From Rhizobiaceae bacterium (lineage in GTDB: Bacteria > Pseudomonadota > Alphaproteobacteria > Rhizobiales > Rhizobiaceae): 64,000 nt of DNA. Positions 18,908-39,404 of this stretch are shown here, piece by piece (position 1 is the first letter of the stretch; every line of letters begins with the position of its first letter). The stretch lies in NCBI GenBank assembly GCA_029233925.1, contig JARGOX010000005.1, positions 1 to 64,000 on the forward strand. Reading direction: 5' to 3'. The notes below the pieces were generated by a model. The model was not told the DNA's origin. It worked only from the letters and a program-made list of their open reading frames with translations, and made no database searches. A program made the position numbers and the translations under genes.

Positions 18908-18949
18908 TGATTTTTGACGAATTTACGTCCTTTACCGTCCAGCGACATG

Positions 18950-19007: not shown

Positions 19008-19032
19008 CACTCGCGAGTCGGAAACCAAACAT

Positions 19033-20229
19033 ATGCCGCTAAATGACGCTCGAATACGAGCCCTGAAACCGGGCGAAAAGCCAACCAAACACGGAGACAG
19101 CGGTGGGTTGTTGCTGGTCGTCAATCCAAGCGGCAGCAAGCTCTGGCGAATGGTATATCGCTACAGTGGCAAGCAGAAGCAACTCTCCTTTGGTGCTTGG
19201 CCGGATGTCTCCCTCGCCCAAGCGCGTGCGCACCGGGATGCTGCAAGAAAGCTGCTTGCAGACAATAACGATCCGTCGCTTAAAAAGAAGCAGGACAAAA
19301 TCGCCAAGGCGGAAGCCGAGACCAACACGTTCGCAGCTTTGGCCGATGAGTTCTTGGAGAAGAACACCCGCGAGGGGAAATCGGAAGCGACGCTGAGTAA
19401 AAAGCGCTGGTTGATCGGGCTGGCTCTCAAGGATCTGCAAACCAAGCCAATAGGCGAGATCAACGCGGCAGATATTCTGGTGCCTCTGCGTCGTGTTGAA
19501 GCGCTCGGAAACTATGAGACCGCGCGCCGGCTCCGTGCCGTGATCAGTCAGGTGTTCCGCTATGGAATTGCGACGGCCCGGGTCAACAATGATCCCACCT
19601 TTGGGCTAAAAGGCGCCATCATTGCGCCGACGGTCACGCACCGGGCCGCTTTGACTGATTGGGAATCGTTCACTAAGCTGATCCGGAGTATCTGGGCCTA
19701 CACCGGGACGAATGAAACGCGTGCAGCCATGAAACTGATGGCCCTTCTGTATCCGCGCCCAGGTGAATTAAGGCAGGCTGAATGGGCGGAGTTCGATCTG
19801 GATAAGGCAACATGGACGATACCCGAAGAGCGCGCAAAAATGCGCCGCTCTCACAAGAAGCCGCTACCGCCTATGGCAATTGATGTATTGCGCGAGCAGA
19901 ATCGCCACACCGGCAACCTGCGCCTCCTATTCCCCTCCAGCACATCAATCGAACGGCCGATCAGCGAGAATACAATGAACCTGGCTTTACGCCGGATGGG
20001 TTTCGGAAAACACGAAGCGACTTCCCACGGTTTCCGCGCAACGGCATCCACGTTGCTGAATGAAAGTGGCTTGTGGAATGCCGACGCGATCGAAGCGGAG
20101 TTAGCTCATGTCAGTGGCAATGAAGTCCGGCGCGCTTACCACCGTGCTGTTTACTGGGACGAAAGGATCAGAATGGCGGCATGGTGGGCAGAGAGAATAG
20201 AAAAGGTTTGGGGCGACACAAACCCTTAA
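19033..20229 (+). CDS. int: P4-type tyrosine integrase (DUF4102 N-terminus)
   Basis: 398 residues from the ATG at 19033 (MPLNDARIRALKPGEKP), the usual start of this family. The upstream in-frame stretch from 18907 overlaps the arm-type repeats and is rejected. The DUF4102 domain (1-85; DSGGLLLVVNPSGSKLWRM) is followed by a SAM-like core-binding domain (about 100-190). The catalytic domain has the first Arg in LLYPRPGELRQAEW, HGFRATAST for the HxxR box, and a C-terminal Tyr in AYHRAVYWDERIR. It should integrate and excise the island at the 3' end of the adjacent tRNA-Leu. All catalytic residues are present, so it may still be active. Confidence 0.93.
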   Translation: MPLNDARIRALKPGEKPTKHGDSGGLLLVVNPSGSKLWRMVYRYSGKQKQLSFGAWPDVSLAQARAHRDAARKLLADNNDPSLKKKQDKIAKAEAETNTFAALADEFLEKNTREGKSEATLSKKRWLIGLALKDLQTKPIGEINAADILVPLRRVEALGNYETARRLRAVISQVFRYGIATARVNNDPTFGLKGAIIAPTVTHRAALTDWESFTKLIRSIWAYTGTNETRAAMKLMALLYPRPGELRQAEWAEFDLDKATWTIPEERAKMRRSHKKPLPPMAIDVLREQNRHTGNLRLLFPSSTSIERPISENTMNLALRRMGFGKHEATSHGFRATASTLLNESGLWNADAIEAELAHVSGNEVRRAYHRAVYWDERIRMAAWWAERIEKVWGDTNP

Positions 20230-22502: not shown

Positions 22503-23219
22503 CTAGCCTGAGAGGTCAACGATTTGGTTGCTCGCGCTGTCGACCCGCATTTCAAGGGAACCGCTTCCTGATAGGACGTAGGATAGTGAACTCCCTAACC
22601 TGAAAGGATAGATCAACGGATGCGCGTCGAGATTGGCAATGGTCAAAGAGCGCCCCACGTGCCTCAGGCAGGCTTCGACGAGCCAGGGGACAACGGCTGA
22701 CTCTTGAATATCCATCGGCGATTTTCGAACGATCTGCTTTCCCCTGTTTGGTCTTTCGATGGCACCCCAACTCGCTTGAGACTGGAGAACCATATTGGTC
22801 ATACGGCGCGTGCCCTCTCGTTCTCCGTAGATTTCGGCCATGCGCCTGTGGACTTCTGCCGAGGTGCAATCACCCTGAAGACTGGTCAACCGGCCAACGA
22901 TCTCCGCAACGCGACCGAAGAATGGATAGGTGGCGATCGCCATGCCCCAAGTGAGAGCCGCAACTGATGTACCCGGCACATTGCGGTAAATCTGAACACC
23001 GCGATCCGAGAATTCGACGAGATCCGGTAGGGGGTCCAGCCAAAGACGATTGAGCACCGTGCGGGTCTTCTTCCTGGCCGCTGGGCCGGAATGCGACGCG
23101 TCGAGGAGCTCAGAGAGATCCTCGAGAGCTGCGGCCCCCGATCTTATGCGCAGGGCGGTTGCCGCCCATTCCAATTGGATGAAGCGGTCAAAGCCGATTT
23201 GAGGGGAAGCCGAGTTCAT
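22503..23219 (-). CDS. brxA: BREX protein BrxA (DUF1819)
   Basis: 238 residues of the DUF1819/BrxA family, a small mainly helical DNA-binding protein of BREX systems. Its segments ALEDLSELLDASHSGPAARKKTRTVLNRLW and LIYPFRLGSSLSYVLSG fit a winged-helix-like body. It is the last gene of the operon, as is usual in type 3 BREX. Its ATG overlaps the pglZ stop (ATGA), so translation is coupled. The molecular role of BrxA in exclusion of phage is not settled. Confidence 0.82.
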   Translation of the reverse strand: MNSASPQIGFDRFIQLEWAATALRIRSGAAALEDLSELLDASHSGPAARKKTRTVLNRLWLDPLPDLVEFSDRGVQIYRNVPGTSVAALTWGMAIATYPFFGRVAEIVGRLTSLQGDCTSAEVHRRMAEIYGEREGTRRMTNMVLQSQASWGAIERPNRGKQIVRKSPMDIQESAVVPWLVEACLRHVGRSLTIANLDAHPLIYPFRLGSSLSYVLSGSGSLEMRVDSASNQIVDLSG

Positions 23220-25213
23220 GACGTCGTTTTCTTTATGGTTATTCTTGTGAATGGAACGATCAGCTCTTCCACAGAAGCCCCGCCGTGCGCAACGATTTGA
23301 TTTCCTTCTGTGACAAATGCTCCCCGGGTGTCGGCGTATACAGGTAAAAAGTCGGGCGGCAGTCCAGGGCTATCGAACCGAAATGCATTGATTTCGGGTG
23401 GAACCGAACCTGCCAGGGATTCACTGCGATAGGTGCGAACTCTTTCGCCCCGAAGTTCGGACACGACTCCCTGGTTGAGGCGACCGATACCTTCCGCATC
23501 GACGTTTCCGTGATCAGCCGTGAGGTAAATGTTATATCCATACTTGGTGAGCAGCAGGACCAGCTTCTCGATGAAGCCAGTTTCGCACCACGCGCTGACT
23601 TGCCCGGCAATGCCTCGCTTACCCAGCATCGCCCCGTGAACGATCTCATCGATCATGTCGACGACGATTCCCGCAACCTTCGTCGACGGTCTGGAAATGG
23701 CTTCCTCCAACTCAGACAGCTGTTCCGTCCGCTTCAGGCCCTTCTGGTAGACGATCTCCGGCGTGCGAAGGCCGTTGTCCTGCCAGAAGCGCGACCACAA
23801 GGCGGGCTCCCTAGATGTTGACTCTATTGAGTTCGCGAATTCGCGGGGCTTGAGACCGGAGAACAAAGCCTGTCGGGAGACGGATGTCAAAGTGGGCAAC
23901 CATGCGAAACACCCACCCTCATCCGCAGAAAAGCCGGGGACTGTTGCCGCCAAGTGTTCCCGGATTTGGACCCATTGATCCATCGCCAGGCCATCGAAAA
24001 CCAGGAGTGCAATTCTTTCCTCGCCAGCGCTCCGGCGCAATGCGAGGTACCGCGGCACATGATGAACCATCACCGGACCCTTCGCTGCCGGAAGAGATGG
24101 CAGGTCGGCAAAATGCTGGAGCAGCCAGTCTTTCAAACGTTCGTCTGCGTCGCGCTGCAATGTACGGACTTGCTTCAGTATCGGCTGAGCATTTCCGTTG
24201 CTCAGACCGTTGAACCGCGAGATTACCTCACCCAAACGTCGTGCAAACTCCACCCAATCGCGATGCGATGAATCGACCCTCGGCATGTCTTGTGCGATTT
24301 TCTTTGCGCCTTCGGCGACAAGATCGCTGATCGCGTTGGGAGCTTCAACCAGACCTACCCTGGTCCAGTCCGGCAGATCGTGCGACAGACCGGCCGCTTC
24401 GACGGGCTGCAGTACCCCCTCTAGAAACATTGTATCGACGTGCCCCCAGACGTCCGGGTGTTCGAAGGGAACAGAAAACGCTCTGGTCGCAATTTGCGTC
24501 CCCTCGGCTGACGCGTCATCATTTTGGATGCCGTACTGCAGCAAGAAGCGCAGCCATGCATCCTGGACGACGCGCACCATGTAGCTCTTAGACGAGAGCA
24601 GCGCGGTGATGGGCAGCCCGCCAAGAGGTGTTTCCTTCAAAATCGTTGCTACATGCTCGGCGAGCAAATCCGGCAATCCCGCGCCGCGATAATGAAGTCG
24701 CAGAACCTCTCGCCAGAAATCCGTTGGCCTGCTGAGCAGGTAAGGGCTGATGCGGAAGATGTGGGTGAGGATGAAGTCCTTGGTCGCTCCTTCTCCGAGC
24801 GGCTGAGTGGCATGTGTGTTGTGCGCCAGGAACAGGGCTTCATGGTGTTCCGAGTCGATCTGCCTGATCACGCTATAACTCAGCCTGGGAAACAGATCCG
24901 CCAAGCTCAGGCTGACCCTGCGCCCCATACGAACATAGTCCCATGGCAGCGTGTTCAGATCAGTTCCCCGCAGCTGCAAGATGAGAGCTTCTGCGGAACC
25001 ATTTTCACCACGATCCCAGGCGGCCCGGTAACGCTCTTCGTACTCTGTGCGGAAACTGATCGGATCGTCGAAAGGCAAAACTTCGAAGCCTCGCTCCCGA
25101 AGCCCGCGAAGGATGTGTTCATCCAGCAACAGATCGTCCGGGTCGCAAGCGATCCAGAAGCGGGACAGTTCAGCAGGAAACGCCTGCAAGATGCGGTCAG
25201 TCCAGGCGCTCAT
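23216..25213 (-). CDS. pglZ: BREX phosphatase-like protein PglZ
   Basis: 665 residues. The central and C-terminal part (about 380-600) is the PglZ alkaline-phosphatase-superfamily domain. The first metal-binding aspartate is in ALLVFDGLAMDQW, a second conserved block is IVVDMIDEIVHG, and a later metal site is YLTADHGNVDAEG. The N-terminal 370 residues are the variable helical part. PglZ is the one protein found in all BREX types and binds or supports the methyltransferase complex. Its ATG overlaps the stop of the helicase gene (ATGA), and its stop overlaps brxA. Confidence 0.92.
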   Translation of the reverse strand: MSAWTDRILQAFPAELSRFWIACDPDDLLLDEHILRGLRERGFEVLPFDDPISFRTEYEERYRAAWDRGENGSAEALILQLRGTDLNTLPWDYVRMGRRVSLSLADLFPRLSYSVIRQIDSEHHEALFLAHNTHATQPLGEGATKDFILTHIFRISPYLLSRPTDFWREVLRLHYRGAGLPDLLAEHVATILKETPLGGLPITALLSSKSYMVRVVQDAWLRFLLQYGIQNDDASAEGTQIATRAFSVPFEHPDVWGHVDTMFLEGVLQPVEAAGLSHDLPDWTRVGLVEAPNAISDLVAEGAKKIAQDMPRVDSSHRDWVEFARRLGEVISRFNGLSNGNAQPILKQVRTLQRDADERLKDWLLQHFADLPSLPAAKGPVMVHHVPRYLALRRSAGEERIALLVFDGLAMDQWVQIREHLAATVPGFSADEGGCFAWLPTLTSVSRQALFSGLKPREFANSIESTSREPALWSRFWQDNGLRTPEIVYQKGLKRTEQLSELEEAISRPSTKVAGIVVDMIDEIVHGAMLGKRGIAGQVSAWCETGFIEKLVLLLTKYGYNIYLTADHGNVDAEGIGRLNQGVVSELRGERVRTYRSESLAGSVPPEINAFRFDSPGLPPDFLPVYADTRGAFVTEGNQIVAHGGASVEELIVPFTRITIKKTTS

Positions 25214-28023
25214 GGTGCACCCGGCAAAGGTTCACCGACGCGCACTATAAGGACGGCATTGAGATCGGGCGTGTAAGCCTCGGCAGCATCGAGCTGCACC
25301 AAACGGGCATCATGGTCGGCCTGCAGACGCTTGCGACGGTAGTCTCGAACCGTCTGCAGGCCGATCCGGCCGATGGCCTGGTATCGAGCGTCATAGGCGT
25401 AGTGGGCGCGCTCGCGCTCTTCTTGAATCCGGGTCCGGTGCTCCTCGACCAAATCACTGAAGATGCGCTCACCTTGAGCAAGAGCCGCATTCCTCGACCG
25501 GTCGAACCAGCCTTCGGCATTTCCTTCGGCGATTGTTCCTATCCGCTCGACCTGCTCCGTGAGAAGCAGATCCCATATCCTTTTAGCTGTCGGCAGGAAG
25601 GTTCGCCCTTCGTCGTTTACGAACACAGATAAAAAGCGTTTTCGACTGAAGTCATCAGCAGACAGACTGATCTCCCAAAGCGACCAGACACCCTGGATGC
25701 TGTCAGGCAGTCCGGCAATCCGGACTGTTGGCAAGGGTTGACCCGACACGCAACGCGGCAGATCGCTGATCACCGCCCGAGCCCTTGGATCTTCAAGCGT
25801 CACCCATTCGATATCGGGCCGGTCTTGTGCTGTTCTTGCGTCGAAACAGACTTTGGCTGACACGCTGCCATCCGCCCAACGCACCCGCCATGCATCGGCC
25901 TCCTTGACCGCATCACCACCACGCGCGGGAAGTCCTGTCGTGATCGCTCGCTCTAGCCAGAACTGCGCTGGGTGGTCCCGCCATTTGCGAGCAGCATCTG
26001 CATCGAGCGCGTGCCCGCCCGACAGGAGCTCGCTGCTCTTGCGGCTCTCCGCAATCGTCGTTCGAAGCTGCGACACGACGGCGTCGCATTCGCTTTCGAT
26101 CGCATCGGGATTTTGGAGGCCCTGGACAAACAATTCATCGAACAAAGGCTCTGTTTCGACCGAGTCCATCACGTCAGCTGCTTTGTCCACGCCAAACTCT
26201 TCGGCGATGACAGCCAGCTTGCTCTCAAGGACTTCACGGACACGATGCTCGACCGTGTCCTCCAGCACGAAGTTGATCGCGCGAACAACGTGTGGCTGCC
26301 CGATACGATCGACGCGGCCGATGCGCTGTTCAACGCGCATCGGGTTCCACGGCATATCGAAGTTGACGATGATGTGACAAAATTGAAGGTTCAGACCTTC
26401 GCCGCCAGCGTCAGTCGAGATCAGAATGCGGACATCACGCGAGAAAACCTGTTGGGCCCGCGAACGTGCGTCGAGGTCCATACTGCCATTCAGCGTGGCA
26501 ACCGAGAAACCGCGGCTTTCGAGGAACTCTGCGAGCATTGCCTGTGTTGGCACAAACTCGGTAAAGACCAGAACCTTCAACTCTGGATCATTCTCTTCCT
26601 GCTGAAGCTTGTAGATCATTTCCAGGAGTGCTTCGGCTTTGGCATCCGTCCCCTGTGCTTCCGTTGATCGGGCGAGTTCGAGCAGTGTATCGACTTCCGC
26701 CTTCTCCATCTCCCAACCCCGGGTCTGGACGGCGAGATCCACTTGGGATTGTCCGTCAAGTTCTGCCCATTCATCGACCTCGTCCGTTTCAAACAGGGAT
26801 GGTTGGAGCTGCGGCTGGTCCAGCAAGGCTTGCCGCTTTTCGAGCGTCGTGCGGATGGCGGCCGTGCTGGAGGTCACGAGCCGTTGCATCAAGATCATCA
26901 GGAAGCCGATGTGCCGTTGCTTTGCGGCCATGGCCTGGTTGTAGCCGTGGCGGACGTAGTCTGTAACGGCCTCGTAGAGCTTTTGCTGGGCTGCGTGACG
27001 GTCCTGCCAGGCAACTGGGTGAAGCCTGGTCATGCGCGGCTTGAAGAGTGGTTTGCCTTCGGCGTCGATTGTGATGCGTTTTTCGGTGCGCACGACAAAA
27101 GGGCGCACTCGATCGCTTGAGATACTGCTCTCATCGGGGAAGGAATCCCGGTCCAGCAGTTGCATAAGTCGATGGAACTGATCGGTCTTGCCCTGATGGG
27201 GCGTTGCCGACAGGAGCAACAGGTAGGGGGCAGCCTCTGCCAGCGCCGCGCCGAGCTTGTAGCGCGCAACCTGGTCCGTGCTTCCGCCCATACGATGCGC
27301 TTCATCTATGATCACCAGATCCCAGGACGCCGAAATCAGATCCTCGAAGCGCTCGCGGTTGTAGGTGCTAAGCTGCTCAAGGCTCCAGCCGCGACGACTT
27401 TCGAGCGGCTTCACGGAATCCAGCGAGCAGATGACTTGGTCATGCATTCGCCATAGGTTTTCCTCGTCGCTGCGCCATTGGCGAAAGGCGGACAACGCGG
27501 CCGGTTCAATGAACTGGAACTGCTCGCCGAAATGCAGGCGCATCTCTGCCTGCCATTGCCTCACCAACCCTTTGGGTGCGACGACGAGGATCCGTTTCGC
27601 CATCCCGCGCAGCTTGAGTTCGCTAAGGATGAGACCGGCCTCAATCGTCTTGCCGAGCCCCACCTCGTCCGCCAGCAGATAGCGGATCCTGTCCCGGCTC
27701 ATGGCCCGGTTTAACGCATAGAGCTGGTGCGGCAGCGGAACGACGCTGGATTGGATCGGCGCCAGCAGGAGGTTGTCCTCCAGGGCGTCCAGAAGCTTCG
27801 CGGCCGCCGCAGTGTGGAGGACATGGTCGACCGTCGGTTGGACAGTGTCGAGCGCGCTCAGGTCGCCTGCACGGGCACGGACGACGGCATCCTTGCCGGG
27901 CAGCCAGACCCGATAGGCGACTTCGCCCCAGATCTCCTCCCGATCAACCACTCGGCAGGGTGCGGCATGTCGATCATGCCAGCACCATTCGCCGATGCCG
28001 TGTCCGCTAGCTGCATGCGTCAA
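25210..28023 (-). CDS. brxHII: BREX type 3 SNF2-family helicase BrxHII
   Basis: 937 residues. A short N-terminal domain (WCWHDRHAAPCRVVDREE) is followed by the SNF2/DEAH motor. It has Walker A LADEVGLGKTIEAG (about 122), the DEAH box IIDEAHRMGG, motif III LLSATPHQGKTDQF, the linker VFTEFVPTQAML, motif V ISTDAGGEGLNLQFC and motif VI QRIGRVDRIGQ. A long helical C-terminal region follows (about 620-937). It is the translocase of type 3 BREX. The start is a TTG whose last two bases overlap the TGA of pglX; no better start is visible, so expression probably depends on coupled re-initiation. Confidence 0.93.
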   Translation of the reverse strand: MTHAASGHGIGEWCWHDRHAAPCRVVDREEIWGEVAYRVWLPGKDAVVRARAGDLSALDTVQPTVDHVLHTAAAAKLLDALEDNLLLAPIQSSVVPLPHQLYALNRAMSRDRIRYLLADEVGLGKTIEAGLILSELKLRGMAKRILVVAPKGLVRQWQAEMRLHFGEQFQFIEPAALSAFRQWRSDEENLWRMHDQVICSLDSVKPLESRRGWSLEQLSTYNRERFEDLISASWDLVIIDEAHRMGGSTDQVARYKLGAALAEAAPYLLLLSATPHQGKTDQFHRLMQLLDRDSFPDESSISSDRVRPFVVRTEKRITIDAEGKPLFKPRMTRLHPVAWQDRHAAQQKLYEAVTDYVRHGYNQAMAAKQRHIGFLMILMQRLVTSSTAAIRTTLEKRQALLDQPQLQPSLFETDEVDEWAELDGQSQVDLAVQTRGWEMEKAEVDTLLELARSTEAQGTDAKAEALLEMIYKLQQEENDPELKVLVFTEFVPTQAMLAEFLESRGFSVATLNGSMDLDARSRAQQVFSRDVRILISTDAGGEGLNLQFCHIIVNFDMPWNPMRVEQRIGRVDRIGQPHVVRAINFVLEDTVEHRVREVLESKLAVIAEEFGVDKAADVMDSVETEPLFDELFVQGLQNPDAIESECDAVVSQLRTTIAESRKSSELLSGGHALDADAARKWRDHPAQFWLERAITTGLPARGGDAVKEADAWRVRWADGSVSAKVCFDARTAQDRPDIEWVTLEDPRARAVISDLPRCVSGQPLPTVRIAGLPDSIQGVWSLWEISLSADDFSRKRFLSVFVNDEGRTFLPTAKRIWDLLLTEQVERIGTIAEGNAEGWFDRSRNAALAQGERIFSDLVEEHRTRIQEERERAHYAYDARYQAIGRIGLQTVRDYRRKRLQADHDARLVQLDAAEAYTPDLNAVLIVRVGEPLPGAP

Positions 28024-30884
28024 GCATCGGCCTCCGTGCGGGTAAGCGCCTGATCATACCAGAGCAGCAGCTTTTCATCTTCCTGCAGCGTCTGATCTGG
28101 CAGTTTCTCGGCGATGCCGATGATTGTCTTGTAGTCCTTCGCCGCCCAAGCCGTCTTGAAACCGGTTCTAAGAACCTCGAGGCGGGACTCTTTCAACTGA
28201 CGTTTGGTCGCCGACTTGTAGGTCTCGAACTCCTTCAGCAGCGTCCGTTCGCGCTTCTGCTCCAGATCCTTTGCCTTGCTTGGATCGGGCACATACCAGC
28301 GGTCCTTTGCCTTTGCCTTTAGTCGCGGATCATGTTTCTCAAGTCCGCGAATATCCTTAAAGTTTGTGGAAAGGTAACCGTGGATCTGGCTCGGCACGTC
28401 TCCTGACGCACCGTAGCGCAGGAAGTTGTCTTCTAACAAAGCCGACAGTTCCGGGCGGGATTCATGCTTCTTCCAACCGACCCCAAGTTGCGACATGAAG
28501 TCAGGGTGGAGCTCTTGATAAGTTGAAGGTCGTTTCTTGAGGAAATCAATCAGCCAATCAATTGCGCTGCGCTCGTCCGCGACAAACATCTCCATTTGAG
28601 GCGCTTGTGCCACTTGGCTGCGTTTGCGGTCATATTCCGTAACTTGCTCGGGCAGAAAGACCATGCCATCACGATCGGGAAACCGCACTCGTAACCCGTC
28701 CTGAAATTCCTGGCTGGAGAGCGGAACCGGAAAGTTGTGTCGAACGAACCAAGCAACCATTCTGTCAAAAATTATTCTAGGATCTCTCTCTGAAATATAC
28801 TCAAGGCCGTCGACCTTAATCTTGGTAACTGGCAAATAGCCCAAGTGAGTCGTCACGAAGTCCCAAACTGATTCAATACCTCCGCCGGATCCCAAGAAGC
28901 GCGCTTCAAGTCCACCATTGGGCTTGTAGGCTGAAATGACCAGATCCTGCTTCACCGCGGTTGTTGTGGTAACGGCCTTAAAGCTACCTTGCTTCTTATC
29001 AAGCGCCGCAACATTAGCCACTACAAATCCAGCTTCCTGCAATGAGGTTTGAATAGAGTTCCAAACTGAGGCTTGGGTATTGGAAAACTCGACAGTCATC
29101 CACCTTCCAGGCTTTAGTTTTCGATAAGCCTCCCTGAAGCATTCGGTCATTAGTATGCGGTAGTGATTCAGGGTCTTTCCATGCCCCTTGTTCTGAACAG
29201 CCTCTTCGTTAATATTTGTAAATACTCCGAGCCAGGCCTCCCAAAGGAAGTTGAGTTCAGAGTACGAAATGTTTGCTCCAAAGGGTGGGTCAATGAATAT
29301 ATAGTCCAAGCTGTCATTTGGAATGAGAGTGTTTGTTGACGACCCTGTAAATACTATTTGACGAGTAGTTTGATCTCGTTTTCCAAGATACGAGGATACG
29401 TCAGCAATTCTGAAAGAAATCATTTTCAAGACAGAATATTCAATCTGGTTCGATGGGACGTAGAGAGTTCCTGCAAGTATCCCAGCAGTCTTGGATAGGT
29501 TCGTATTGAGGCGGCTAACTGCTATTTTATGCATCTTGCTCGCGCGGGGTAGTTGATCACCGACCAAGCAAAGAAGTTGTGCTGCCATTTCCGAACTATC
29601 GATGTGATGCCTTAGGCTGGCAAGTACCGACAAATTACGTTTCGTATAGAACTGGTGGACATGTGTAATCCCAATTGAGTCATTGCGTCTTGCCTCACGC
29701 CCTTCCATCATTCTGTCAGTAGGATGCCAATTTTCAATTTTTGATTTCTCGATTTTCTCAACAATTGCCAAATCAACTGAATCTGGTTTCTTCTCGTAGC
29801 GCTTCTTACCTACGCTGTAGTTGATCAACACTGGAGATTGCTTGGCTTGCTTAAAAGTCTGGTTCGTCGATGGGTCTACCTGCGTAACAAAGGCCCTCTC
29901 GATAGACCTTTTTGTTAGGGTTGCAGAGCAGTGTGGGCAATCAAACTTATCACGTACTGCGCCGACTTTTTCATCAACGGCCACGTCCCAGAATACAAGT
30001 TCTCCGGCACACTCATTGCAATTAAACGCATCAGACCAAACTGTGTAATTTATTTGACCAATTGCTGCAATATTGGACAAATCGGGGCGACCCTCTTTCT
30101 GAAGATGATGCAGGCCATCTGTGATCTTTTCAGCACTCGGGGCGTGCAGAGTTTGGTACATCCAGCCGCATTCGGAAATCACCTTCGAAAGTGACGTCCG
30201 CGCCTCTCTCGCGAAGGCAAAAACGTCAGCTGGAGAGTTGTAGTTATAAGCTATGAATGTTGCCGCTGGAGCAATATCATTAAGTATTGCTCGCCTTATA
30301 CCCAGTTTTGAAAAAGGCTTCCATACCGATCGCCCTTCTTCTTGATGTGCCTCGTAGATAATACCTGAAGAATCAACGCGAAACCCGAGAGCCTCAACAG
30401 CCGCTCTATTGCCGCACATTTGCGCTGCAACGCCTGTCATTCCAGTGCCGCAGAAGCCATCATAAATAATCTCACCAGGCTGCGTATAGTGCAGTATATA
30501 CCGCATAATTGCCCTATGCGGTACTTTAGTATGATAACTATGTGCATTGTAAATCGGGTCATTTTTTCCTTCGCTGACGTCAGCAGCAAAAGGTTCCTTG
30601 ATGTGAGGTGTTAATTGCTCATATGGCGAGCCATAACACTTAATGAAGTCACCTAAGAAAGGATTAGGACATGCTGAAAAATACGGTGGGTCCGATAGTC
30701 CTAGAATTGCCTCATCGGTTCCTTCGGGGAACCCTTCCAGCGCGCGGAAGGATGGATCTTTTAACTTCTCAGCTAACAGCTTCGAAAAATGCTCCCTCCG
30801 CGCCTCCTCGCTCGGGAAGGTTATACCGAGGCACTCGACCGGTCCGCCGCTCTTGCCGCCATCCATCTTCAGTTGATCAGTCAT
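28020..30884 (-). CDS. pglXI: BREX type 3 adenine-specific methyltransferase PglXI (DUF1156)
   Basis: 954 residues of the COG1743 type. The N-terminal DUF1156-like part has SDPPYFSACPNPF. The AdoMet-binding motif I is YDGFCGTGMTGVAA (about 140). A zinc ribbon (CNECAGEL ... CPHCSATL, about 290-325) follows. The catalytic motif IV is DYIFIDPPFGANISYSEL (about 530). The enzyme should methylate a non-palindromic adenine site and so mark self DNA while the system excludes unmodified phage. The middle of the gene (roughly 28.8-30.6 kb) is visibly richer in A and T than its ends and neighbours. It starts 35 bp after brxC and its stop overlaps the helicase start. Confidence 0.93.
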   Translation of the reverse strand: MTDQLKMDGGKSGGPVECLGITFPSEEARREHFSKLLAEKLKDPSFRALEGFPEGTDEAILGLSDPPYFSACPNPFLGDFIKCYGSPYEQLTPHIKEPFAADVSEGKNDPIYNAHSYHTKVPHRAIMRYILHYTQPGEIIYDGFCGTGMTGVAAQMCGNRAAVEALGFRVDSSGIIYEAHQEEGRSVWKPFSKLGIRRAILNDIAPAATFIAYNYNSPADVFAFAREARTSLSKVISECGWMYQTLHAPSAEKITDGLHHLQKEGRPDLSNIAAIGQINYTVWSDAFNCNECAGELVFWDVAVDEKVGAVRDKFDCPHCSATLTKRSIERAFVTQVDPSTNQTFKQAKQSPVLINYSVGKKRYEKKPDSVDLAIVEKIEKSKIENWHPTDRMMEGREARRNDSIGITHVHQFYTKRNLSVLASLRHHIDSSEMAAQLLCLVGDQLPRASKMHKIAVSRLNTNLSKTAGILAGTLYVPSNQIEYSVLKMISFRIADVSSYLGKRDQTTRQIVFTGSSTNTLIPNDSLDYIFIDPPFGANISYSELNFLWEAWLGVFTNINEEAVQNKGHGKTLNHYRILMTECFREAYRKLKPGRWMTVEFSNTQASVWNSIQTSLQEAGFVVANVAALDKKQGSFKAVTTTTAVKQDLVISAYKPNGGLEARFLGSGGGIESVWDFVTTHLGYLPVTKIKVDGLEYISERDPRIIFDRMVAWFVRHNFPVPLSSQEFQDGLRVRFPDRDGMVFLPEQVTEYDRKRSQVAQAPQMEMFVADERSAIDWLIDFLKKRPSTYQELHPDFMSQLGVGWKKHESRPELSALLEDNFLRYGASGDVPSQIHGYLSTNFKDIRGLEKHDPRLKAKAKDRWYVPDPSKAKDLEQKRERTLLKEFETYKSATKRQLKESRLEVLRTGFKTAWAAKDYKTIIGIAEKLPDQTLQEDEKLLLWYDQALTRTEADA

Positions 30885-30919
30885 CTGTTCGTCTCATTTC
30901 AAAATGGGTTGGCAGGCAA

Positions 30920-33900
30920 TCATTCGACCACGAAGCGCAGCTTGGTGGTGTCCTTCCCCTTGCAACGGTCGTTCAAGAAGGCATCGAAACGCTTACGCAG
31001 ATCCTCGGGTGTCGCAGGCGATCCGCCTTGGAGCAGAGCGTTGCGGATGTCGTCCCCCGAGACGACCACCTTATCGAGACCGGACAGCGCTTCCTGGACC
31101 GCTGCAATAAACTCAGGCGTCACCATGTCCGGCAGGGTTTTCGTCTCTGCAAAGCCCGTGACAATCTTGCGCGAAGCATCTTTCAGCAGCTCGAAGTTCG
31201 ACTGGATGATCGGATCCTCGAGGTTGTCGACGAGGGTCTGAACCCAGCCTTCCAGGAGCCGGTCGAGTTCGTCATCGAGCCGCGCAAGGACATTGGCGGC
31301 GGGTAGCAGTTCGCCTTGCTCGTTCGCGGGGCGGAAGTTGCAGTGTGGACAGACCGGCGCAGCGGCTTGTTCGGAGTCGACCAGAGAGGCGCAGCTCTTC
31401 AGCTTGTCCAGCTTTTCCTCGAAGCTCGTGAGCTGACTGGCTGGCATCAGCGAAATATTGGCCAGCGCCCGCATTGCGACCAGCCGTTCGTCATTGCGCA
31501 AGGCAGTCTTGGTCTTGTCCTCGGAAACCCCAAGTCGCGCTTTGCTGTGCAGCGCCGCGTAAGCGATCACATAGTCGTTTTTCAGCTTGTTCAGCGTTTG
31601 CCGGTGTTCGGATGCGTTCTGCGTGGTCCGATCCGCAGCAAGTTTTTCGAGAACCTGCTTCCGGGTCTCCTGCGCCTTCGTGACCCACGCGTGGTCAGCG
31701 GGCAGCACCATTTCGGCCTGGCCTAAGTAGCTGGCTGTGTTGCCGAGCTCAGCTATCAATTTCAGTAACCCCTCAACAGAGTTCAGGACGTCGAGGTTCT
31801 TCTTCTGCGCTGCGATGTCGTCGGACCCAATGCGCAAGTTCTTCAGTTTGCCCACGGTGTTGTACGGTGCCAGACTCTCAGAGAATGTCTTGAGGGCATC
31901 AAGCTTCGCGCGCCAATCACTGATTTTTTCCTCCCGAAGGAGGGACTGCCCCCAAAAGCTGAGCCTGTTGGCCATATCGGTGGTCGCAGCAAGCACACGC
32001 TTTGTCAGCGTGCTGATCTCTTCTTGGAGCGCCTTTACGGGCTCGTCGGAACCCTGCGTAGCTTGTTGGGCAAGACCCGGCGGCAGATCAAGCATTTCGA
32101 ACAGCGATCGCAGGACCGCGACGTTGATCTCCTTAGGAGCTTCTACATGCTTGAACTGCTTGAGTTCTTCGAGCGGACGCTCGGCAAGCAAAGCGACCTT
32201 TCCGGAATCGATCTTGTCACCAGTGATTGCCAGGACGATGTCGCCTGAATAGATGAGTCCGCCCAGCACCGTGACGAGCAAATCAGGTTCGAGCCGGTAT
32301 CTGGCCGGAACGAAATGTTCTACATCGGCATCTCCGCTCAGCAATTCGCCGCGGTTTAGAACTTGCCCGCTCCCCTTGGCTTTAAGCCGTGAAAGCACTT
32401 CTTGCGCATATCGAGACCGGGTTGGGTCAATGCGATCCCCATCGAGCATTTCGAGACCGTCTAGGATAACCAAGGCGTCCCTGGTTCGGGTGCCACCTGA
32501 CAGTGTTCGAAGCGCGTTCCCCACTAGTTGCTTCCGGTTGGACCCGGTGACGAGAGCAGAGAATGTCGGATAGTCTGGAGCGACATCAGAAAAACGGCTG
32601 CTCAGTGCAATACCGGCGATGACGTTAATAACATCGCGGAAATTGGCACGCTCATCTGGCCCCAAACGAGCCTTATCTCGCAGGGAGATACCCTTTGTCC
32701 AACCCCGGAGTGACTTCGCTTTGCCTTGGTATGTGACTTCGAATGCCTCAAGTTGCTTTTCCTGGAGCCACTTGCTCATATCGCGCAGAGCGTCCCGGGC
32801 TCTTTCGAGATAGACAGCTTTCGCGCCACCGCTTGCCGTCGCGGCGAGTTCCTGAGCGGCGGCATAGAAGGCCAAAAGGCGCTTGATGGTATCGTCGCGG
32901 TCCTTTAACCGGAAGAAGACCTCATCCGCCCTGTGATCATCACGAAAGCGAGGCGGATCGAACGGCTGAATAAAGAACAGGTAGAAGTCGCGTTCCGGTT
33001 GCGCGGTGGGCCGATCGTTTGGCGCGCCGAAGAAAAGATAGCCGATACGCTCGACCCGGCGTTCCTGCCATTCAATCTGATATTGCCAGATTTGGTGGCC
33101 GGTGACATAGCTCGAATCGTCCGTCCGCTCCATAAGCTGCCGAATTGCGTCGAAGTAAGCACGATCGAGTGAATCGTCGGATAGGGCTTCGGCGCGCTTC
33201 TCGATCTGGGCATCGTAGTCGACGTCCTTCTTCAAATCGAGGTAGTACTGCTCCGTGTCGGGCGCCTTGGAAATGAACTGGCCGTTGACGGTTTTCAATG
33301 TCTCCCGAAGTGTGGTTTGCACAGCGGTCAGCAAATCATCAGATGGATCCCCACCCATGTCTTCAATGCCTGGTTGGAACAAGCACAGCGTGTCGCGCAG
33401 CTCCTCGGCTGTCGGGCCAACCGGCACGTAGATGTCGCCACCTGTCGTCAGTCGATGAACCGACAGCCCATCAATGATCCGAAGCGCCATCGACTTGTAG
33501 GCGAGGCGTGTGAAAGCCTTCTCCACGCGCTCCGACAGTACCTCGGAGACTTTCAGAACCGGCCCGATGTTTGGATCAGCGCGAAGCACCGAGTTTGAGG
33601 TTACCGTCTCCCAAAACTTGTCATAACAGATCAGCCCTGGGCGATCGTCTGGGACTTCGGCCTCGAGGATCGCCTGAATCTGATCCCTAAGTGTGACCAG
33701 CGCACCGCGTTTTTCTGTGAAGACGAGGCGCTCAAAAGTTCCGATGTAGTCAGGATGCACCGGGAACAACCGAACGTACTCGTCCATGCGCTCATTCATC
33801 GAACCATAAAATTTTGAAAATGGCGTTAGGTAGGTGCGAATCTTGTCCTGCTGATCGGACGTCTTTTTCAGCAGGCGCTCGGCGACCACGAAACTTACGT

Positions 33901-34651
33901 CTTGGCGGGCGAGCAGGACTTGCGTGAAGCGATCCTTCACACGGCGCAGGCTATCGGCCACATGCTGGAAGCGACTGCTGTCAAAGATAGCTTCCTGAAC
34001 ACCGGCAACGAAGCGGAATCGAAGGTGCTTGGTGACCTCGCCAATCTCTCGCAGGAACGACAGGTCGAGAACCAGATCGTGATCTTTGCGCGATCGCAGG
34101 AATTCGAGGAACTCGTCGACGACGAGCAGGACACCATGGTTCGGGTGAACCTCGGCAAAGGCCGCCATCATCTCCTCGAAGGCAGCCTTGTTGTTGATGA
34201 CCTTGTCAGCTGGAGGGAAGGAAAAGCTGACACCGTGCTTTTCGAGGAATACCTCTAGCTGTTGCGTGATGATGTCCCGCAGAGACATCTGGCTGGATAT
34301 CTCGATGCGGTGAACCTTGAACTTCCCGGCAATTGCTGCAGCAGCATCAGCCACTTTTGGATGTTGGATCATCGAGACATAGGCCTCGTCCTCAGCCACC
34401 AGTGAAAGCATCGACATCAGATGCGACTTGCCGGTTCCGTAATTGCCAACAACCAATACACCCTTGTGGTCCACGGACTCGTTGAACGAGAGCTGGGGGA
34501 TTATCGACCTGGCGATCCGCTCGGCCATGTCATCGGAAATGACGTAGGTCGAAACCAGCTTCCTGGCCTCGTCTGGACGATTGGCGTCCAGAAGTTGAAT
34601 GACCGATTCAATCGGCTCGAACTGAATGAGATCGCCATAGCGCATCGACAT
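30920..34651 (-). CDS. brxC: BREX AAA+ ATPase BrxC
   Basis: 1243 residues from the ATG at 34651, which has an AAGGGGAA seven bases ahead. An upstream TTG at 34669 is not needed. The N-terminal ATPase domain has P-loop VGNYGTGKSHLMSML (about 66-80), the Walker B-like LLVVDEFLEFL (about 160) and LSFLREIGEVTKHLRFRFVAG. Long helical and coiled-coil stretches fill the C-terminal half, which also has a CxxC pair (AAPVCPHCNFRP near 1095). BrxC is the large ORC/Cdc6-like ATPase found in most BREX types, thought to organise the other subunits on DNA. It follows brxF with a 14-bp gap. Confidence 0.92.
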   Translation of the reverse strand: MSMRYGDLIQFEPIESVIQLLDANRPDEARKLVSTYVISDDMAERIARSIIPQLSFNESVDHKGVLVVGNYGTGKSHLMSMLSLVAEDEAYVSMIQHPKVADAAAAIAGKFKVHRIEISSQMSLRDIITQQLEVFLEKHGVSFSFPPADKVINNKAAFEEMMAAFAEVHPNHGVLLVVDEFLEFLRSRKDHDLVLDLSFLREIGEVTKHLRFRFVAGVQEAIFDSSRFQHVADSLRRVKDRFTQVLLARQDVSFVVAERLLKKTSDQQDKIRTYLTPFSKFYGSMNERMDEYVRLFPVHPDYIGTFERLVFTEKRGALVTLRDQIQAILEAEVPDDRPGLICYDKFWETVTSNSVLRADPNIGPVLKVSEVLSERVEKAFTRLAYKSMALRIIDGLSVHRLTTGGDIYVPVGPTAEELRDTLCLFQPGIEDMGGDPSDDLLTAVQTTLRETLKTVNGQFISKAPDTEQYYLDLKKDVDYDAQIEKRAEALSDDSLDRAYFDAIRQLMERTDDSSYVTGHQIWQYQIEWQERRVERIGYLFFGAPNDRPTAQPERDFYLFFIQPFDPPRFRDDHRADEVFFRLKDRDDTIKRLLAFYAAAQELAATASGGAKAVYLERARDALRDMSKWLQEKQLEAFEVTYQGKAKSLRGWTKGISLRDKARLGPDERANFRDVINVIAGIALSSRFSDVAPDYPTFSALVTGSNRKQLVGNALRTLSGGTRTRDALVILDGLEMLDGDRIDPTRSRYAQEVLSRLKAKGSGQVLNRGELLSGDADVEHFVPARYRLEPDLLVTVLGGLIYSGDIVLAITGDKIDSGKVALLAERPLEELKQFKHVEAPKEINVAVLRSLFEMLDLPPGLAQQATQGSDEPVKALQEEISTLTKRVLAATTDMANRLSFWGQSLLREEKISDWRAKLDALKTFSESLAPYNTVGKLKNLRIGSDDIAAQKKNLDVLNSVEGLLKLIAELGNTASYLGQAEMVLPADHAWVTKAQETRKQVLEKLAADRTTQNASEHRQTLNKLKNDYVIAYAALHSKARLGVSEDKTKTALRNDERLVAMRALANISLMPASQLTSFEEKLDKLKSCASLVDSEQAAAPVCPHCNFRPANEQGELLPAANVLARLDDELDRLLEGWVQTLVDNLEDPIIQSNFELLKDASRKIVTGFAETKTLPDMVTPEFIAAVQEALSGLDKVVVSGDDIRNALLQGGSPATPEDLRKRFDAFLNDRCKGKDTTKLRFVVE

Positions 34652-34665
34652 CTCGTGTTCCCCTT

Positions 34666-35124
34666 TCAATTAATTTCGAATGGGACCAGGCCGTCGATGC
34701 CGTAGTCCTGATGTTCTGGATGTCCTGTCGCTGCATAGGAAAGCCGGTTCTCCCGGAGGTCTCCCGGCCACACAGAAACGATACGACGCGCTTGGGCATG
34801 TCGCCTGAGTAAGTCTAACGGGCTGATATGCAGCGTCCTGTCGAACAGAAGTTCGATGTTGTCCATTAACAGAAGCCCATTGCCTGCGACTTCATCTGCA
34901 AGGCCCTTCAACAGATCGGCTGCCTGCAAATGTCTTCGCGTGCCTGGCACTGTGAGCAATTCACGACCGAGAACCGCGCCGACATTCAGGACCGGCGTCT
35001 GTCTGCGCGCAGATAGCTGCCCAAGCAGATCACTCTTTCCAGACCGGGGCGGGCCGATCAGGAGGATCAACTTGCTGTTCAACTTCGAGATGTCTTCAAC
35101 GAGGCGGTCGAGTGCGTCGATCAT
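34666..35124 (-). CDS. brxF: BREX type 3 small ATPase BrxF
   Basis: 152 residues. P-loop LLIGPPRSGKSDLLGQL (about 21-37), Walker B-like GLLLMDNIELLFD (about 82-94) and the sensor-like segment RIVSVWPGDLREN. This short P-loop protein is the first gene of type 3 BREX operons and is diagnostic for the type when followed by brxC, pglXI and brxHII. Its role is not established. The ATG at 35124 lies 11 bp past the end of the broken regulator. The TGA stop is 14 bp before the brxC ATG. Confidence 0.88.
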   Translation of the reverse strand: MIDALDRLVEDISKLNSKLILLIGPPRSGKSDLLGQLSARRQTPVLNVGAVLGRELLTVPGTRRHLQAADLLKGLADEVAGNGLLLMDNIELLFDRTLHISPLDLLRRHAQARRIVSVWPGDLRENRLSYAATGHPEHQDYGIDGLVPFEIN

Positions 35125-35135: not shown

Positions 35136-35503
35136 CTATCGCCTTGGCAGAATTCGCGGCAATGTTGGCTGAGCCTGACTCAGCAGCATTGAGGAGCACG
35201 ATTGCTGGTTTTGTGGTCTCCGCGCATTTGGGTCCGTAGCGAGCCCAAGCTGCCTGAGCGTATAGTAGAGCAGTGCCTTGAATTCAGGGCCCCGAATATA
35301 GGTCTGCGCACTCCTGTCGTAAACCATGTTGTCCGGGGCGAAACCGACATAGCGGTTCAGATCGGTGGATGCCTTGTTCACCGATACCTTGAACTGTTCC
35401 ATCAAATCGCTACGGTGCATGTGTCCTCCCAAAACAGATGGAATTCGATGAAGTCGAGCCTTTGCTCGACACCCTCGCAAGCCTCCGAACTGTCATTGTT
35501 CAC
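35136..35503 (-). pseudogene. broken BrxR-type regulator (winged HTH only)
   Basis: Two minus-strand frames together give the N-terminal wing-helix region of a BrxR/WYL-type BREX repressor. From a GTG at 35503 one frame reads EQRLDFIEFHLFWED (35467-35423) and then runs into a TGA. The continuation HRSDLMEQFKVSVNKAS and NRYVGFAPDNMVYDRSA is in the next frame (about 35419-35300). A one-base loss (or two-base gain) near 35420 explains the break. After IRGPEFKALL the similarity ends and the frame stops at 35136, so the WYL effector domain is missing. A third frame remains open to a TGA at 35130, 6 bp before brxF. BrxR normally represses its BREX operon. A start at the internal ATG at 35421 could still give a truncated HTH protein. 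Confidence 0.7.
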
Positions 35504-35847
35504 TGCGCTCACCCGGGCTTGCCGATCTGCGCTTATCTATGCATACATATATTGTGCGTGCACTTCTACGCTATCTACGCGACAAACGTGTCGCAAGCGG
35601 AAAAACTGTTTTGTGTCAGACAGTTTGCACGTTCCACTCCAGGTTCGGGCCGACGACAGGGGTAAACGATTGACTCCAAAACACAGGCAAGACTCCCGCG
35701 CCCAAGTGATTTCAGCAAAGACATCTACGAGGGCGGCAATGGTGGGCCCAGGTCGAAGCCGCCCTATGTGGCGTGTAAATCATTTCCTCGGATCTGATCT
35801 TCTTCGGCAAATTTCCTCACTTTGACGGTCAACTTTTGAGGTCTACG
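35504..35847 (-). promoter_or_regulatory. upstream region of the BREX operon with two inverted repeats
   Basis: This 344-bp gap lies between the second recombinase and the regulator remnant and should hold the promoter for the whole BREX operon. Two clear palindromes are present: GCGACA/TGTCGC around an AACG or CGTT core at 35579-35594, and AAACTGT/ACAGTTT spaced by 10 bp at 35603-35626. BrxR proteins are known to bind inverted repeats in front of their operons, so these are candidate operators. No gene is supported in the rest. Confidence 0.5.
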
Positions 35848-37470
35848 TCAAGAGGATGAATTCTTCTCAAAGATATCCTTTGCACGCCTGAAATCGGGAT
35901 CTGTTTCGGTGATCTTGCTACGCGCGAACGCGAGATAGAGTTCGAGTTCGGACCAGTGGGACAGAGCTCGACGGCAAAGCTCGTCGAGGATCAACTCCCG
36001 CTCGCTGTCCGGCATGGATGCATAATGCTTGCGGATTATCTCAGTTGGTGTGTGCCCGAAATTGAGCTGCAAGGCGAGCTCTTCATTTATCGTCATGCCA
36101 CCACGCCCGGAGAGAAACGGGTGCTGGATCTTCCGGAAATCATGTGAAGAAATACCGCCATCAGTGATACCCGCAGCGTGGGCCGCATCCTTGATGATCC
36201 GTTGCACCGAATCATCTGATTTCCAGCACTGCGCTAGGTCAGTTGCAGCGGGTCGATAGCCGAGGCCAATCTTATTTGACTGAATGTGACGATCAGGCAG
36301 GAAGAATGGTGCATCTTCGCCGAAGCCGTTCGTGTCACGCCAACGCGCCCATGCAGCGATCGCATTGAGCAACCCGGAACCGAGGTCAAGGCAATAGGTG
36401 CGAATGTGTTTACCCAGCTTCGTGTTGACCTCCCGCGGATCCTGGTTGATCCATCGGGTATGAGGGTTCACGTGCTTGCCGCGAAGGGTGATCAGGGCAG
36501 CAATGCGTAATCCTGTTACAATGAGCATCGCAATGATAGCTCTATTCCGCAACTCTAATGGCTGCGATTGAGGCATGGCTTTGAAAATGCAAAGCGCTTG
36601 ATCGAAGTTCAGACTTGTCCCTTTCACCATGCTGGACTCGGCCGCCCGCTCTCTACGAGAAGGCTTGAAGTACCCCGGAAGATCGGGGTCCATCCGGATG
36701 TCTGGCCGACGCTGCAGCCATTTGAAAAAGGCACAGCAACGGCCCAACGTGTGCACGACCGTTGATCTGCTCAGCCCCTTGCGTCCATCCAGTTCTCGCC
36801 GATGTCGCAGCTCATCCTTGAACCCGCAAACATCGGCAATGGTGATCAATTCAAAGGCCTTGTGGGCAAGGAATGCGCTCATTTGGCCGATGGCGCGCAA
36901 ATGCGCATCAACAGTTCGCACATCCCATTCCTGATGGTTTTCGAGGAAGATCCTGTAGCCATAAAGCCAGCGCAAATTGGAACTGTTGTTTTCTGGCGGG
37001 ATTGGCGTACCACTTCTCGCAATATCCCCCGAGACCGCCTCTTCATTTACGTCGCACGAGTCTTCGGCGGTATTGCGGGAAGAAGTGAAAATTTCACCGA
37101 GATCACTGGCTGGGACTTCAACATGCAGCATGTTGTGGCAATCACTGCACACTCCTGTCACTGAGAGCCATTTGGTTTCAGTCGAAGCCGTTTGGATTGT
37201 TTCGGCAACCAATGCTTTAAACCCGAGGCATCCCGAGCAGAAAATTCGACCTTTCTCGGGCGAGCGGCCACGCGGCCAGCGCATGTTTGTCAAGAACTGG
37301 CGCAGTTTGTATCCCGCGAAGAGTTGAGGGCGCTTGTTGTCGACTGGCTCAAGGCCCCCGCGTATCCAGTTTGTGATTGTGCCATCACACACACCGAACA
37401 TCGTACAGAGCTCTTCACGGGTATAGACCCAGTGACGGCGCGCTTTGGTGGAATCGTGTCGACGTGCCAT
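35848..37470 (-). CDS. tyrosine recombinase with HTH and zinc-ribbon-like N-terminus
   Basis: 540 residues. The N-terminus (15-60; YTREELCTMFGVCDGTITNW) is a helix-turn-helix. It is followed by a four-cysteine segment, CSGCLGF and then CSDCHN about 35 residues later, that could bind zinc. A SAM-like core-binding domain (about 165-265) and a catalytic domain come next. The first Arg is in VTGLRIAALITLRG, the HxxR box is SSHDFRKIQ, and NFGHTPTEIIRKHYASM gives the late His and the Tyr nucleophile. All five catalytic positions appear present. It lies 2 bp after an AlpA-like HTH gene. It may mobilise a sub-element of the island or target a second site. Confidence 0.85.
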   Translation of the reverse strand: MARRHDSTKARRHWVYTREELCTMFGVCDGTITNWIRGGLEPVDNKRPQLFAGYKLRQFLTNMRWPRGRSPEKGRIFCSGCLGFKALVAETIQTASTETKWLSVTGVCSDCHNMLHVEVPASDLGEIFTSSRNTAEDSCDVNEEAVSGDIARSGTPIPPENNSSNLRWLYGYRIFLENHQEWDVRTVDAHLRAIGQMSAFLAHKAFELITIADVCGFKDELRHRRELDGRKGLSRSTVVHTLGRCCAFFKWLQRRPDIRMDPDLPGYFKPSRRERAAESSMVKGTSLNFDQALCIFKAMPQSQPLELRNRAIIAMLIVTGLRIAALITLRGKHVNPHTRWINQDPREVNTKLGKHIRTYCLDLGSGLLNAIAAWARWRDTNGFGEDAPFFLPDRHIQSNKIGLGYRPAATDLAQCWKSDDSVQRIIKDAAHAAGITDGGISSHDFRKIQHPFLSGRGGMTINEELALQLNFGHTPTEIIRKHYASMPDSERELILDELCRRALSHWSELELYLAFARSKITETDPDFRRAKDIFEKNSSS

Positions 37471-38027: not shown

Positions 38028-38123
38028 AGGAAAGCTCCCCAAGGACAAAAAGTCCTGCTGGACAAATGCTCGACGGCCCAAAAACCGCTTGGGCTCATCA
38101 ACGGATGTTGAAAATCAAAAGGA

Positions 38124-39384: not shown

Positions 39385-39404
39385 GACGCTCGAGCCAGGT
39401 GCGA

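Follow-up and report, generated by a model that had tools for sequence, protein, structure and literature searches.

In type I restriction, the specificity domains of HsdS are exchanged. Among the bacteriophage exclusion (BREX) systems, PglX of type 1 marks a 6-bp non-palindromic site and its specificity has been rationally engineered (PMC11341690), methylation by type 1 requires other BREX proteins (PMC9122589), and the alignment of type 1 pglX diverges between E. coli HS and Salmonella (PMC9009780), variation of the type 1 target recognition domain (TRD) having already been remarked. Type 3 BREX has been called less explored; in its methyltransferase PglXI the TRD is nested and carries a 4-Cys zinc finger, with helix-turn-helix (HTH) domains at the C-terminus, BrxHII is RapA-like, BrxF corresponds to BrxB, and effectors occur within core BREX loci (all PMC12839542), as does BxaP, inserted between PglXI and BrxHII (PMC10799925).

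A type 3 BREX operon is located on the minus strand at positions 22503-35124 of the 64,000-nt stretch of DNA analysed here (positions 1 to 64,000 of contig JARGOX010000005.1, assembly GCA_029233925.1, Rhizobiaceae bacterium), called the window below. The operon as such is ordinary, another example of type 3 BREX: like the known systems it has all six genes in the same order, matches the family models, and has a nested 4-Cys TRD and a BrxHII of about 940 aa. Unlike them, it is preceded by a pseudogene of the regulator brxR, and the ancestry of its PglXI conflicts with that of the operon; unlike most of the related loci compared, it has no extra gene beside pglXI. We consider it highly probable that this intact type 3 core is the cargo of a tRNA-Leu island in an alphaproteobacterium and that the middle of PglXI (about aa 81-640) has been exchanged, its C-terminal part (tested as aa 700-954) and the five other genes being alphaproteobacterial.

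The type 3 core operon

The presence of an intact type 3 BREX core at 22503-35124 was confirmed. Six minus-strand open reading frames (ORFs) run in the order brxF-brxC-pglXI-brxHII-pglZ-brxA, which matches the canonical type 3 list in PMC10799925, and PADLOC models match all six proteins:

34666..35124, minus strand: brxF, 152-aa P-loop protein with Walker A GPPRSGKS and Walker-B-like LLMDN; NCBIfam type 3 model BREX_3_BrxF (NF033453) 173 bits, cut-off 50; PADLOC E 5.7e-38
30920..34645, minus strand: brxC (DUF6079), 1241 aa from ATG 34645; PADLOC BrxC 1762 bits
28020..30884, minus strand: pglXI (BrxXI), 954-aa adenine-type DNA methyltransferase with nested TRD; PADLOC PglXI 1353 bits
25210..28023, minus strand: brxHII, 937-aa SNF2-type helicase; PADLOC BrxHI|BrxHII 1432 bits
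23216..25213, minus strand: pglZ, 665 aa; NCBIfam type 3 model BREX_PglZ_3 (NF033449) 680 bits, cut-off 250; PADLOC E 3.8e-226
22503..23219, minus strand: brxA, 238 aa; PADLOC BrxA 2e-63

The earlier note on this DNA, made from the sequence alone, had described six leftward genes in type 3 order, joined by 4-bp overlaps or very short gaps, with P-loops in BrxF and BrxC, DPPF and a zinc ribbon in PglXI and DEAH in BrxHII; all of this was recovered, and the profile search it proposed names every protein in PADLOC and passes the NCBIfam type 3 models of BrxF and PglZ. Its description of the operon as complete and intact holds for the six core genes, but not for the upstream regulator. It gives no right end for the island and does not remark on the separate history of PglXI.

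The top PADLOC model of the helicase, although named for both BrxHI and BrxHII, is described as BrxHI, and the model described as BrxHII gives 282 bits; Pfam SNF2-rel_dom is matched, and NCBIfam RapA gives 220 bits, under its cut-off of 576. The NCBIfam BrxC model gives 57 bits with the BrxC of the window, under its cut-off of 400, and the NCBIfam BREX models gave no match for its BrxA, PglXI or helicase. In Pfam, DUF6079 spans BrxC and PglZ spans the PglZ domain.

The P-loops are GPPRSGKS at residues 24-31 of BrxF and GNYGTGKS at residues 67-74 of BrxC, the latter accompanied by LVVDE, and the DEAH of BrxHII is at residue 240. PglXI has F-x-G-x-G (motif I) at 144-148, DPPF at 532-535 and CxxC at 289/292 and 316/319; its TRD is nested between the methyltransferase motifs and has a 4-Cys zinc ribbon, the arrangement expected of type 3. 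For comparison, the best 80 of 156 loci from a genome scan were aligned together with three plasmids, genome G269 and the window, which gave 85 rows with BrxC, 67 of them with a full-length PglXI. GNYGTGKS is kept in 85/85 rows, and DPPF and the four Cys in 67/67. The Walker A of BrxF is kept in 72 of 83 rows, K30 and the Walker-B Asp D88 each in 81 and N89 in 82; BrxF possibly binds NTP (nucleoside triphosphate) without hydrolysing it, which would fit the Asn that follows the Walker-B Asp in 82/83 rows. Over the six proteins together, the window deviates at 16 of the 1450 positions that are at least 97% conserved in relatives (BrxF 1/24, BrxC 10/564, PglXI 2/216, BrxHII 2/454, PglZ 1/145, BrxA 0/47).

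Overlaps of 4 bp are found at three junctions, pglXI/brxHII, brxHII/pglZ and pglZ/brxA. The brxC-pglXI gap is 35 nt, and the brxF-brxC gap is 20 nt if brxC begins at ATG 34645, which makes BrxC as long as it is annotated in relatives; an alternative upstream start, TTG 34669, would give 1249 aa. The start of brxHII is a TTG overlapping the pglXI stop by 4 bp, and is credible because 28 rows, the window included, have this overlap (GTGA in 24, TTGA in 3, ATGA in 1). In two relatives, L014 (11250-11340) and L015 (25090-25180), brxHII is annotated as beginning 90 nt further downstream than the conserved GTGA overlap; the annotation thus appears to lack about 30 N-terminal residues of BrxHII.

The AlphaFold2 model of PglXI has a mean pLDDT (predicted local distance difference test) of 83.9. 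A fold search with it in the PDB gave only weak methyltransferase matches, CcrM (6pbd) included, with a best E of 1.1e-3, and the TRD had no recognisable match among the 50 listed; a profile search with PglXI found seven different PDB sequences, N6/N4 methylases including CcrM, each at about residues 118-165 only. Scans for promoters and terminators gave results at chance level. By its parts, the machine would work as follows: PglXI, with other BREX proteins, would methylate an adenine within a short motif that the TRD determines, thereby marking host DNA, and BrxC and BrxF (NTP binding), BrxHII (SNF2 translocase) and PglZ (by analogy with type 1 a metal-dependent nuclease) would act on unmarked phage DNA; BrxA would bind DNA.

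Ancestry of PglXI in the window and across the family

Three parts of PglXI are referred to below:

28965..30644, minus strand: PglXI block aa 81-640, which groups with the betaproteobacterial copies L058 and L080
29325..30164, minus strand: TRD, aa 241-520, the most variable part by conservation profile, holding the 4-Cys zinc ribbon
29445..29564, minus strand: aa 441-480, identical in the window, L058 and L080; candidate base-contacting element

The operons nearest to that of the window by BrxC are those of Primorskyibacter flagellatus (L024) and Paracoccus subflavus (L068), with BrxC 89% and BrxHII 91% identical, and the best identities of the other genes of the window are likewise alphaproteobacterial. 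Over PglXI aa 161-580, however, L024 and L068 are only 42% and 47% identical to the window, against 71% and 72% in L058, a Sulfuritalea metagenome-assembled genome (MAG), and L080, a Neisseriaceae MAG. These two have the nearest PglXI (75% and 74% overall), yet their BrxC frames are betaproteobacterial, 79% and 71% identical to the BrxC of the window. In trees, the PglXI block 81-640 of the window groups with L058 and L080 (SH-aLRT, a Shimodaira-Hasegawa-like approximate likelihood ratio test, 100), its PglXI 700-954 falls in a set of eight rows of Alphaproteobacteria and plasmids (SH-aLRT 97), and its BrxC lies among Alphaproteobacteria with Roseobacter/Paracoccus-type relatives (support 95). 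On the BrxC tree, a constraint that joins the window with L058 and L080 is rejected by the approximately unbiased (AU) test (p-AU 2.8e-37). The pglXI of the window thus looks chimeric, a recombinant gene that is mosaic at least on its C-terminal side. "Betaproteobacterial" describes the sampling of the PglXI middle and not the direction of donation.

Within the TRD, the three proteins share every residue of aa 441-480, and of the 40 third codon positions 14 and 16 agree between the window and L058 and L080; since the protein is identical while most third positions differ, strong selection on this segment is indicated, and it is probably a base-contacting element.

The same decoupling is seen across the family. 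Over the 67 rows with full-length PglXI, the rank correlation (rho) of pairwise identity with that of BrxC is 0.87 for PglZ, 0.79 for BrxF, 0.69 for BrxHII and 0.54 for BrxA, 0.64 for the fast segment of PglZ and 0.40 for the C-terminal part of PglXI, and falls to 0.04 for its N-terminal part and 0.01 for the TRD; restricted to the 40 rows in which PglXI, BrxHII and PglZ are all complete, rho is 0.88 for PglZ, 0.71 for BrxHII and -0.03 for the TRD. In Mantel tests with 1000 permutations, none reached the value of PglZ, BrxHII or the C-terminal part, while 174 reached that of the N-terminal part and 381 that of the TRD. Among the 48 pairs whose BrxC identity is 95% or more, which come from 38 loci in 12 groups, the TRD is less than 50% identical in 43, and its median identity, 36%, compares with 35% in the 1014 pairs with BrxC below 75%. 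The 12 groups of near-identical frames hold 35 TRD types at 60% single linkage. Conversely, the 42 pairs with TRD at least 70% identical have a median BrxC identity of 80%, against 78% over all pairs. Single pairs show both extremes: L058/L080 with TRD 95% and BrxC 73%, L015/L062 with BrxC 99.6% and TRD 47%. By their titles, the telling loci L015, L025 and L062, L028 and L029, and L054-L056 come from isolates and not from MAGs; L015 is Leisingera thetidis, L062 Thioclava dalianensis, and L025 a Phaeobacter in which the frames of brxHII and pglZ look interrupted. Changes of class label number 8 on the BrxC tree (shuffled mean 27.1; 0/200 as low) and 11 on the tree of PglXI 700-954 (27.0; 0/200), against 24 for PglXI 1-600 (27.3; 21/200) and 26 for PglXI 81-640 (27.5; 66/200).

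The TRD might instead not have been exchanged, but have evolved fast in place under phage pressure until similarity decayed to background, as its median identity of only 35% and the known fast divergence of TRDs of host immune enzymes (PMC12839542) would allow. This we regard as very improbable. A segment that is equally variable, PglZ 181-350 (median identity 43%), remains 94% identical in close operons (n=23) and falls to 38% in pairs with BrxC below 75% (n=321); the trees are in strong conflict; and fast vertical change is excluded as the source of the high TRD identity on distant operons (L058/L080 and the 42 pairs).

Exchange of the PglXI middle also has to be set against replacement of whole pglXI genes, with or without neighbouring cargo. 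In blastn comparisons, similarity is low from the start of pglXI in L014/L027 (Roseicitreum antarcticum and Roseicyclus mahoneyensis, with near-identical frames and different TRDs) and L088/L091, and extra genes stand beside pglXI in many loci: more than 400 nt lie on at least one side of it in 49 of the 67 loci with brxC, pglXI and brxHII (the pglXI ORF itself being cut in three of the 49, L033, L043 and L089). Both PglXI ends are frame-like, however, in L101/L103, L062/L015, L062/L025 and L025/L015, the C-terminal part and the middle differ in ancestry in the window, and the correlation with BrxC along PglXI, 0.18 at aa 1-40 and about 0 at 81-680, climbs to 0.70 at 921-954. Whole-gene replacement is held to be unlikely, albeit a good deal less so than change in place. 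The shape of the correlation profile suits crossovers in the conserved ends of the gene; homologous recombination there would be the route by which the PglXI middle is swapped, which would give a new motif and leave the rest of the machine unchanged. The borders at aa 152-176 and 520-532, where a change-point fit placed many of them, were discarded, for they coincide with steps in conservation and could arise even under whole-gene replacement. As fitted breakpoints tend to follow such steps, the reading of borders is limited to the blastn of 11 chosen pairs and to the only 5 of 46 pairs in which both flanks exceed 0.85 identity, with borders at aa 60-136 on the left and 648-816 on the right.

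Several points weigh against an exchanged middle or limit it. Three of these five pairs come from the same three loci, the 48 close pairs are not independent, and the sample is confined to the best 80 of the 156 loci. On the tree of PglXI 1-600 the Alphaproteobacteria label taken alone is still clustered to some degree (14 changes, shuffled 18.9; 5/500 as low), and the constraint rejected so strongly on BrxC is only weakly rejected on PglXI 700-954 (AU p 0.022, a modest value). L058 and L080 are MAGs with a TRD only 71-72% identical to that of the window, and where residues are identical to those of the window, only 30-53% have the same third codon position; the shared allele therefore looks old, and the direction and date of the exchange are not fixed by it. 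At residues 1-40 the best alphaproteobacterial row reaches 88%, against 67% in L058, with an alphaproteobacterial mean of 65%; being a maximum over many rows, the 88% is no proof of an N-terminal junction. Such a junction was considered and set aside, as the alphaproteobacterial mean gives no preference at residues 1-80, and an alphaproteobacterial origin of the first 40-80 or so residues is only suggested. Finally, recent arrival was considered as a reading of the GC trough over pglXI and rejected because the trough is family-wide: G+C at third codon positions (GC3) is lower in pglXI than in the operon in 71 of 72 rows, counting the window and the duplicate loci L017 and L019.

This GC3 deficit is deepest in the TRD (mean -0.241; 66/67 rows) and nearly absent at aa 801-954 (38/67); an AT-rich exchange pool and a coding constraint are the candidate causes.

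The genes flanking pglXI in relatives were scanned by one member each of ten of 26 insert clusters. The longest member of the largest cluster, of 21 ORFs, is a Schlafen-AlbA_2 protein; the others include AAA_21 (OLD-like), HerA DUF87, SIR2-like and HATPase proteins, as well as several that matched no family. Among phages, 1 of 50,697 records matched PglXI, at 24.9%, and among plasmids 84 records matched, all below 60% and at best 48.8%. Additionally, the IMG/VR contigs L143, L144 and L145 encode PglXI relatives, with best segments 58, 41 and 74% identical; these contigs may be viruses with BREX genes or host DNA sorted wrongly into the viral collection.

The brxR pseudogene and the tRNA-Leu island

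Upstream of brxF and around the operon, the following features were located:

35136..35516, minus strand: brxR (WYL regulator) pseudogene, with a frameshift near the start, an internal deletion of about 510 nt and a second frameshift near the end
18760..18846, plus strand: tRNA-Leu (CAG), the insertion site (ARAGORN, Rfam)
18829..18849, plus strand: attL, at the tRNA-Leu 3' end (local alignment)
39365..39384, plus strand: attR, equal to attL in 19 of 21 aligned columns (one mismatch, one gap)
18907..20229, plus strand: island integrase of the tyrosine type, start uncertain (Pfam Arm-DNA-bind_3, Phage_int_M, Phage_integrase)
18966..18989, plus strand: left copy of an arm-site-like repeat (family D5), role inferred
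39283..39306, plus strand: right copy, 96%, of the same repeat, role likewise inferred
35848..37470, minus strand: second tyrosine recombinase, 540 aa, upstream of the operon (Pfam Phage_integrase 31.6 bits, cut-off 27.1)
37473..38312, minus strand: two small HTH_17-like proteins, at 37473-37976 below and at 38124-38312 above the Pfam cut-off

In the relatives L014 and L015, a WYL-annotated gene ends on brxF with a 4-bp overlap. In the window, tblastn recovers only pieces matching residues 25-75 and 247-273 of the L014 BrxR, and the lesions, read from the DNA pieces and in three frames, amount to about 170 of 298 residues lost. An intact copy was not found elsewhere in the genome by a protein search with the L014 BrxR. 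Similarity to the DNA of relatives ends near the brxR start, so that the native promoter region may be gone. A brxR ORF is detectable in 48 of 86 loci examined (window included), is at least 240 aa long in 46 of these, and in 43 of the 48 such an ORF lies no more than 100 nt from brxF; only the window and L090 have a shorter one, where the match is 14 kb from brxF. The other 38 have no detectable brxR, some because the contig ends.

With brxR lost, expression of the operon is predicted to be altered, and the operon could accordingly be viewed as an inactive, decaying relic whose regulator is wrecked and whose promoter side has been rebuilt by the neighbouring recombinase genes. A clean deletion of brxR in type 1 was toxic, with restriction reduced and BrxC increased, whereas a premature stop changed little (PMC9122589). 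The extent of the lesion, the possible loss of the promoter and the first of these type 1 results speak for a relic; the second of these type 1 results speaks against it, as do the 38 loci without a detectable brxR and the six open core genes, in which 1434 of the 1450 conserved positions are kept. A relic is, in our judgement, quite unlikely, slightly more so than whole-gene replacement, and an intact core, perhaps misregulated, is preferred.

The tRNA-Leu island announced by the earlier note stands: an integrase lies beside the tRNA, the 3' end of the tRNA recurs at the opposite boundary, and a 24-nt repeat lies inside each end, placed as integrase arm sites would be. Because the tRNA 3'-end repeat and the inner repeat mark both ends, the island would measure about 20.5 kb from attL to attR. 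The alignment score of attR was reached by none of 2000 shuffles of that piece, and among 150-nt pieces across 19000-63800 only those over a decayed tRNA copy at 47762-47870 outscore it. Besides the operon, the island contains the second tyrosine recombinase, the small HTH proteins and, at 20689-21714, the gene of a 341-aa protein that combines a short DpdC-like stretch (residues 75-125, 1.1e-6) with a DUF7662 C-terminus.

BrxF was found in 2 of 101 genomes searched (its own included) and in none of seven congeners, and among 385 genomes sampled from the class a type 3 PglZ exceeds the cut-off in 5. The congener G002 has flanks about 95-98% identical and no BrxF match; its contig stops at window position 18482, 278 nt before the tRNA. 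Beyond attR (39600-47700), only repeats and short weak matches are found among the congener matches listed, so that the strain-variable region is wider than the island bounded by the att sites.

Past the island, an element at 39618-40044 has 20-bp perfect terminal inverted repeats (by eye) and resembles a miniature inverted-repeat transposable element; parts of it recur many times in the genome itself and in G002, copies of a 110-nt part being mostly 86-95% identical. The decayed second tRNA-Leu copy at 47762-47870, which includes 19 nt of upstream sequence, is 86% identical and not called by ARAGORN, and the sequence after it (47862-48005) resembles that after attR (39376-39519) at 74%; it suggests an older or a tandem insertion. 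Just past it, at 48064-49606, lies an AbiEi/AbiEii toxin-antitoxin pair (PADLOC AbiEii 4.9e-68, AbiEi 5e-87). It is also worth mentioning that the genome of L023 carries a second, type 1-like BREX system (G000:C38, 13487-19273) with BrxL (1171 bits), an 833-aa PglZ (1084 bits) and a partial PglX at the end of the stretch, and that a 563-aa recombinase about 9 kb from it is 26% identical to the 540-aa one of the window.

Specificity as a proposed module

Judged from these comparisons of genes, the specificity of type 3 BREX seems to move between operons as an exchangeable module. This resembles the exchange of HsdS domains and the engineered PglX of type 1 in that one module sets the motif and can change independently of the rest, and differs in being natural here, in concerning the differently placed internal TRD of type 3 PglXI and in crossovers that apparently lie within the ends of the methyltransferase gene. 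No statement on free exchange of type 3 PglXI specificity was found in the literature searched, subscription papers lying mostly outside it; in PMC12839542, neither swap nor recombination nor exchange occurs as a word, and horizontal occurs twice.

A wider proposal, about which we are slightly more doubtful than convinced, is that the PglXI core and TRD form a pool across Alpha-, Beta- and Gammaproteobacteria that is in linkage equilibrium with the operon and replaced at least as fast as the operon changes species, in which case near-identical machines would almost never share a motif. Such turnover would suggest that new specificity is strongly selected, perhaps by phages that come with the donor's mark, or alternatively that exchange has a route of its own through the conserved ends of pglXI.

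Near-identical operons with different TRDs, such as L015/L062, are a natural set for reading the code that relates TRD to motif, and mosaics such as that of the window reveal which junctions are tolerated. If specificity is an exchangeable cassette, the defence would be re-aimed in one recombination step, and recipients would be protected from phages marked by the donor.

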